DNA of 64,000 bases from NCBI RefSeq assembly GCF_000217995.1, contig NC_015676.1:1280103-1344102 (forward strand), written 5' to 3'. Position numbers and translations under genes: made by a program. Below the pieces are notes generated by a model, which ran no database searches, was not told where the DNA came from, and saw only the letters and a program-made list of their open reading frames with translations. Source of the stretch: Methanosalsum zhilinae DSM 4017 (GTDB taxonomy: Archaea; Halobacteriota; Methanosarcinia; Methanosarcinales; Methanosarcinaceae). Each line of letters starts with the position of its first letter. The stretch's first letter is position 1. Positions 19,957 to 44,749 of the stretch are shown here, piece by piece.

Positions 19957-20130
19957 AAAATTATTGAACTGATATTCATTCTAAATAAAATATAATGCTT
20001 TTTTTAATTAAAACACAAAGAATTGATTTGTAGGTAGGGCTGGTTTTTCTAGCCATTTAAATCAACAGAAGATTCTCAATATGACATAAGACTTAACTTT
20101 TTCGAAGATACCTATAACCCAAAAAGCAAG

Positions 20131-20215
20131 TGCGAGGGGTGAGATTCGAACTCACGAACTTCTACAAGACTAGGCCCTCAACCTAGCGCCTTTGACCTGG
20201 CTGGGCAACCCTCGC
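20131..20215 (-). tRNA. tRNA-Leu (anticodon GAG)
   Basis: Minus-strand cloverleaf: acceptor GCGAGGG pairing with CCCTCGC, D-arm region GCCCAGCCAGG, anticodon stem CTAGG/CCTAG around loop TTGAGGG giving anticodon GAG, a long class II variable arm, and the T-arm TGAGTTCGAATCTCA. Discriminator A, as expected for tRNA-Leu. No CCA is encoded and there is no intron. Confidence 0.97.
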
Positions 20216-24598: not shown

Positions 24599-24728
24599 GT
24601 TATCCCACCCTGCTCAAATGATTCTTATCAGAGTATTAATATCTGCTCCTGTTGATCTGATTCAAATTTGAGATGAGTTCCTTTTTTTAAAGCAATGAAT
24701 GATCAAATAAATGTTAGTAAAAATAGTA

Positions 24729-24812
24729 CGCCGAGGGGGGGATTCGAACTCCCGAGGGGCTGAAGCCCCACAAGCTTTCCAGGCTTGCGCCTTACCGCTA
24801 GACTACCTCGGC
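24729..24812 (-). tRNA. tRNA-Ser (anticodon GGA)
   Basis: Minus-strand class II cloverleaf: acceptor GCCGAGG pairing with CCTCGGC, discriminator G as required for serine, D-arm GTCTAGCGGTAAGGC, anticodon stem CAAGC/GCTTG around CTGGAAA giving GGA, long variable arm TGGGGCTTCAGCCCC and T-arm CGGGAGTTCGAATCCC. No CCA encoded. It follows the 3' end of the Cbf5 gene by 30 bases and may be co-transcribed. Confidence 0.97.
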
Positions 24813-24842
24813 ATTTCGTATGACATAACATTAGAGCAATTA

Positions 24843-43849: not shown

Positions 43850-44007
43850 TTATCATGTATTTACCTGATAATTCTTCACGAGTAATATGAGTCATCATTA
43901 TTAAAATCTACTAATTATAAGATTTTACTATGTTCTTCTAGTGTAAGAAACATAATTATTTGATATGAAAAAGCAAAAAATTACGATCAAAATATCCGGG
44001 TTTGGGT

Positions 44008-44079
44008 ATTTCATGTGCCTCAGAACTCATAGGGCTCATCATATTGTCAGTAACAGTAATCATCACAGGCACATGAAAT
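44008..44079 (-). ncRNA. C/D box sRNA (2'-O-methylation guide)
   Basis: Minus-strand order: terminal stem ATTTCATGTGCCT, C box GTGATGA, 9-nt guide TTACTGTTA, D' box CTGA, spacer CAAT, C' box ATGATGA, 12-nt guide GCCCTATGAGTT, D box CTGA, then AGGCACATGAAAT, which pairs perfectly over 13 bp with the 5' arm. All four boxes match consensus and spacing of archaeal C/D sRNAs bound by L7Ae, Nop5 and fibrillarin. By the D+5 rule the D guide places the methyl on the C of ACUCAUA, which is C34 in the anticodon loop of elongator tRNA-Met. The gene begins 14 bp after the pyrF stop and may be processed from the same transcript. Confidence 0.85.
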
Positions 44080-44092
44080 CAACACATCATAT

Positions 44093-44749
44093 TTACCGGG
44101 TCACTGACTCTATTTCAGCAACAATACTTTCTGCCACTTTTTTAGGATATTGGGATTTATATATACTCCTGCCTACAATTATCCAGTCTGCCCCCGATGA
44201 TATGGCGTCTGAAGCTTTGCCGCCCTGAGCACCTACACCAGGAGACATGATCTTAAGTTCATTCCCTATAATATTCCTTATTCTCTTTAAGGAGTCAGGT
44301 CTTGTGGCAGGCGCAACTACACCGGCTGCACCGCATTCAACTGCCATCTCTGCTATAGATTCAGCTACAGGAAGGAAAAAATCAGTAGCTCCAGGATGGC
44401 TCATCTCAGCCACAACGTATACTTCCTTTCCAAATTCCTCAGCAGTTTCAATGCATGAAGAAAGACTGTCCCTTCCAGGAAATCCATGTGAGATTACAGA
44501 ATCCGCACCTGCTTTGAATACATGTTCACATATTAATTTGTTCGTATTTGGAATATCAGCAACTTTAAAATCTGCAATAACAGGTGCATATCGTGCCAGT
44601 TCTCCAATGATACCAATACCAGCTCCAAGCACCAGTGGGTACCCTACCTTTATAGCATCAACTGAATCACAGGTTTCTTCTGCTATCATGATTGCTTTTT
44701 GTTTTTCAACTACATCCATGGAAAGTATTAATCCTTTATTTTTGATCAT
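44093..44749 (-). CDS. pyrF: Orotidine 5'-phosphate decarboxylase
   Basis: 218 residues, the last step of UMP synthesis. The catalytic Asp-Lys-Asp triad is in [13 protein letters not shown] (about residue 62), with the opening [13 protein letters not shown] and the phosphate-binding end [20 protein letters not shown] and [13 protein letters not shown]. Length and motifs are of the archaeal type. Follows deoxyhypusine synthase with 6 bp between. Confidence 0.95.

Follow-up and report, generated by a model that had tools for sequence, protein, structure and literature searches.

The interval between pyrF and iorA in the halophilic, methanogenic archaeon Methanosalsum zhilinae DSM 4017, whose genome is a single contig of 2,138,444 bases, raises two questions: whether it encodes a C/D box small RNA (sRNA), as suggested by an initial annotation of the window (the whole 64,000-nucleotide stretch of DNA that was analysed), and, if so, which RNA it may guide. 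Both flanking genes named in that annotation were identified on the minus strand: pyrF (orotidine 5′-phosphate decarboxylase; positions 44093-44749; NF010386, 304.9 bits at a cut-off of 208) upstream of the proposed sRNA and iorA (TIGR03336) downstream of it.

Structure of the sRNA gene

The sRNA gene extends from position 44079 to 44008 of the minus strand and contains C, D′, C′ and D boxes in this order, enclosed by a terminal stem; its RNA reads AUUUCAUGUGCC U GUGAUGA UUACUGUUA CUGA CAAU AUGAUGA GCCCUAUGAGUU CUGA GGCACAUGAAAU. The C box (GTGATGA; 44060-44066), D′ box (CTGA; 44047-44050), C′ box (ATGATGA; 44036-44042) and D box (CTGA; 44020-44023) are present at the places and in the order originally reported, and they follow the RUGAUGA/CUGA pattern with the spacing of archaeal C/D box sRNAs. 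The boxes delimit two guides: (i) the 9-nt D′ guide TTACTGTTA (44051-44059) and (ii) the 12-nt D guide GCCCTATGAGTT (44024-44035). The terminal stem, located beside the C/D k-turn, is formed by the 5′ arm ATTTCATGTGCC (44068-44079) and the 3′ arm GGCACATGAAAT (44008-44019). It had been described as 13 bp long; 12 of these pairs are perfect, but the thirteenth (44067 U / 44020 A) involves the final A of the D box.

The 64-kb window has a single instance of the strict C-D′-C′-D pattern, whereas 60 simulated windows had none, and even a loose box pattern was found only 0.017 times per simulated window. The folding energy of the sRNA strand is -20.6 kcal/mol, compared with -11.5 kcal/mol for shuffled sequences (z = -4.0). 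The box order and stem, together with a match to the Rfam model sR41 (described below) and the relatives detected with this model, identify 44008-44079 as a real C/D box sRNA gene, encoding an archaeal guide of known type. The protein machinery is also present, since the genome carries adjacent genes for fibrillarin (PF01269, 281 bits) and Nop5 (PF01798, 200 bits). In the related Methanolobus psychrophilus, C/D sRNAs, fibrillarin, Nop5 and L7Ae are expressed (PMC5378194).

Several other RNA features were recorded in the window and elsewhere in the genome. The window contains, on its minus strand, a eL15-Euryarchaeota ribosomal protein leader (1658-1712; Rfam, 41.8 bits, above threshold), a tRNA-Ser(GGA) gene (24728-24813; Rfam and ARAGORN) and a tRNA-Leu(GAG) gene (20130-20215), which was called by ARAGORN and is absent from the Rfam scan of the window. 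A tRNA-Pyl(CUA) gene (L045) is located at positions 1119807-1119875 of the contig. The intron-containing tRNA gene L043 (493151-493254) was called tRNA-SeC(UCA) by ARAGORN, but is probably tRNA-Arg(UCG), because a related gene (in L190) reads as Arg(UCG).

The two guides and their predicted targets

According to the initial annotation, the D guide targets the anticodon loop of elongator tRNA-Met, with one G-U pair at position 30 and the methyl group placed on C34. A search of tRNA-Met for complements to the guide returned this site, with the fifth base upstream of the D box (G) opposite C34 (D+5). The sole elongator tRNA-Met gene of the genome (L027; contig positions 239994-240103) contains an intron after position 37, which starts with GGG (...GCCAGA CUCAUA|GGGAAAUAAG...). 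The core of the D guide, CCCTATGAGT, forms 10 contiguous Watson-Crick pairs with A31-CUCAUA|GGG, plus the G30-U pair, and this duplex crosses the exon-intron junction. Thus the proposed pairing with the anticodon loop stood, but its extent was too short: it left unpaired the CCC of the guide, which matches intron bases 1-3. The complementarity to the anticodon loop and the 5′ end of the intron, with D+5 on C34, is that of the sR-tMet class.

The match between the CCC of the guide and the GGG of the intron makes pre-tRNA the better description of the substrate. The calculated duplex energy is -18.2 kcal/mol with the precursor versus -8.9 kcal/mol with the spliced tRNA. Initiator tRNA-Met and tRNA-Ile(CAU), which are also present in the tRNA set of the genome (assigned from their sequences), form only 8 pairs each, two of them G-U, when D+5 is placed on C34. 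It is very probable that the guide directs 2′-O-methylation of the wobble base C34 of elongator tRNA-Met, and the substrate is probably the intron-containing pre-tRNA-Met rather than the spliced tRNA. The 5′ splice site would lie within the paired region, which takes in the 5′ half of the bulge-helix-bulge motif, and therefore methylation of C34 should precede splicing; the same argument has been made for H. volcanii (PMC2584109).

Comparison of 69 distinct relatives of the sRNA revealed that the 10-nt core is invariant in all of them, whereas every column of the D′ guide varies. The extraction of these sequences did not demand a particular guide, but the loci came from searches that score it, so the invariance of the core is partly selected; its contrast with the D′ guide is still large. 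On the target side, CUCAUA|GGG is present in every elongator tRNA-Met read (more than 40 in the family, plus three from two other families). Conservation of the intron GGG alone is no proof of guide pairing, because these bases are also part of the bulge-helix-bulge motif. The elongator tRNA-Met genes of Methanotrichaceae and Methanoperedenaceae, whose T-loop reads CTCGAA and not TTCRA, were found with a tRNA model. The guide was examined for covariation with its target at two positions: the base preceding CCC (G, A or T) did not track intron base 4 (A or T), nor did the base adjacent to the D box (T, A, C or G) track tRNA base 30 (always G in those read). The guide core displays conservation, not compensatory change.

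No target of the D′ guide had been named in the initial annotation. Our search, which covered 16S and 23S rRNA and all tRNAs, found one perfect match: all nine bases of this guide are complementary to 23S rRNA positions 1383-1391, which would direct a methyl group to A1387 (own numbering). Shuffles of the D′ guide of the window find a perfect rRNA complement in just 1% of cases, and the sRNA could on this evidence be a dual guide, acting on both C34 of tRNA-Met and A1387 of 23S rRNA. We nevertheless consider a dual function unlikely. Across the family, 60 distinct D′ guides yielded a single perfect 9-mer complement in rRNA, against a mean of 0.56 for shuffled guides, and another Methanosalsum genome (L161), with a different sRNA, has an unrelated D′ guide, so that this sequence is not kept within the genus. 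Moreover, one guide without a target is common among archaeal tRNA-directed C/D sRNAs (PMC7994747). Given the chance-level frequency in the family and the unrelated sequence in the congener, the D′ guide is treated here as a probable orphan.

It is far less likely that the true target of the D guide is another RNA, e.g. tRNA-Ser(GGA), and that the tRNA-Met match is secondary: although a 14-base pairing with tRNA-Ser(GGA) has a duplex energy (-19.4 kcal/mol) similar to that with tRNA-Met, five of its pairs are G-U, the D+5 base falls on a paired U of the anticodon stem, invariance among relatives extends to both the guide core and CUCAUA|GGG of tRNA-Met, and an identical guide is the published Cm34 guide of H. 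volcanii.

Distribution and linkage to pyrF

In the family, 93 of 112 genomes gave a hit to the gene in a DNA search; the sR41 model detected it in 210 of 238 genomes across the class and in 221 of 394 from a phylum sample. Some genomes (G124, G196, G198, G203 and G232) contain two matches to this model, and the second may be another copy or a related guide. The same sRNA is present in a further Methanosalsum sp. (L266), whose pyrF is 94.5% identical to that of the window, as is the pyrF of G073 (same genus). Across 73 relatives, the inner five pairs of the terminal stem are conserved at 90-99%, and pairs 4 and 5 show compensatory changes; a stem length of 12 pairs is peculiar to the Methanosalsum sequences.

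A same-strand pyrF is located immediately upstream of the sRNA in 133 of 184 loci, comprising essentially all Methanosarcinaceae with enough flanking sequence, plus Methanoperedenaceae; this linkage is absent from the Methanotrichaceae loci. In Methanosarcinaceae, between 6 and about 160 bases separate the pyrF stop codon from the C box. In Methanoperedenaceae, in family f15 and in the records of Methanolliviera and Methanoliparum, the C box itself supplies the pyrF stop codon with its first TGA, for example in K-C-R-stop, read from AAGTGCCGATGATGA. Among the Methanoperedenaceae, K-C-R-stop on ..TGCCGATGATGA was found in L092, L095, L096, L099, L103, L106, L108, L204, L218 and others. A single stretch of DNA thus serves in this family as both the pyrF stop codon and a k-turn motif. 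Overlap with the 3′ end of an upstream ORF, with the stop codon in the C box, is a generally known property of archaeal C/D sRNA genes (Tripp et al. 2017, reviewed in PMC7994747). Such an overlap is shared by Methanoperedenaceae and some other lineages, but not by the window, where 26 bases lie between the pyrF stop codon and the C box.

An independent promoter of the sRNA was sought by base composition across the family, and no consistent TATA-like position was found. Since the space available for a promoter is small in many genomes, a transcript that is shared with pyrF and then processed seems likelier than transcription from a promoter of the sRNA itself. Downstream of the sRNA, the T-rich stretch TTTTTTGCTTTTT (43950-44000, minus strand) may constitute an archaeal transcription terminator, judging from its sequence. 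The distribution of the linked loci suggests that the association of the guide with pyrF is old. Among the papers searched, none joined Methanosarcina, C/D box sRNA and pyrF.

Two further proposals concern the transcript itself. One, which we regard as speculative and improbable, is that a single transcript yields either the pyrF mRNA or the guide; excision of the guide would then remove the 3′ end of the mRNA and couple pyrimidine synthesis to the modification of tRNA-Met. The other, that the k-turn is a cis-acting L7Ae site in the 3′ part of the pyrF transcript, governing the processing or stability of the mRNA with no free guide being formed, would suit the position of the sRNA after pyrF at the 133 linked loci and the stop codon inside the C box of Methanoperedenaceae, but is most improbable in view of the location of the Methanotrichaceae RNA away from pyrF and of the invariance of a guide core that cis-regulation would not need.

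We return to the free guide RNA, and hold with high confidence the combined reading of a C/D sRNA that is probably cut out of the pyrF transcript or transcribed as part of it, whose D guide specifies Cm34 of elongator pre-tRNA-Met and whose D′ guide is most likely idle. The following course of events in Methanosalsum, from transcription to the timing of methylation, is inferred from the sequence data. Once released, probably from the pyrF transcript, the sRNA would fold into two k-turn motifs binding L7Ae, Nop5 and fibrillarin. The D guide would then pair with nucleotides 30-37 of elongator tRNA-Met and, in the precursor, with intron bases 1-3, and fibrillarin would methylate the ribose of C34 before the pre-tRNA is spliced. 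Most likely, the D′ half has no target and plays a part in the assembly of the RNP.

Relationship to known Cm34 guides

The default Rfam scan of the window listed neither sR41 nor sR-tMet at the sRNA locus. A search at relaxed thresholds matched both of these archaeal C/D sRNA families. The best match was sR41 (RF01126; 44 bits, E 3.4e-9 for a 301-base stretch, spanning 44018-44070), and the second was sR-tMet (RF02163; 26.1 bits). Since both scores are below the curated cut-offs (54 bits for sR41 and 50 bits for sR-tMet), the default scan is silent at this locus, and by these formal limits the sRNA of the window belongs to neither family. The sR41 score is below the cut-off in 237 of the 238 genomes of the class and passes it in only one, i.e. 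the cut-off shuts out nearly all relatives in the class.

The sRNA of the window resembles sR41 in its overall length, its boxes and its D guide GAGCCCUAUGAG, which is identical; it differs in the D′ guide, in the bases around the C box and in those just before the D box. The guide GAGCCCUAUGAG is also carried by the sR-tMet Rfam family. With sR-tMet of H. volcanii the sRNA shares (i) the target nucleotide, (ii) the guide GAGCCCUAUGAGU, (iii) the pairing with the first bases of the intron and (iv) a trans-acting mode, being encoded apart from the tRNA gene. It is shorter than sR-tMet, which has a longer D′-C′ part, and its D box is the canonical CTGA, in contrast to CCGA in the sR-tMet Rfam consensus. 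The sR49 RNA of Pyrococcus, cited in PMC2584109, has the same predicted target (Cm34 of tRNA-Met) and is compared here on that basis.

In 2008, a separate sRNA for Cm34 of the intron-containing tRNA-Met, which in part pairs with the intron, was reported with 18 candidates, and Cm34 in H. volcanii was assigned to such a guide (PMC2584109); Joardar et al. 2011 (cited in PMC4033218) showed the Cm34 guide of this species to be sR-tMet. Cm34 guides with intron pairing were thus already described in 2008-2011 in Haloferax and other archaea, and the phenomenon is established. What the present analysis adds is a well-supported Cm34 guide for Methanosalsum and most Methanosarcinia, missed by the default Rfam thresholds, in which the second (D′) guide drifts freely while the attachment to pyrF persists across several archaeal lineages. 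The sRNA of the window is not of a new kind: with the same guide, it would work as the known Cm34 guides do.
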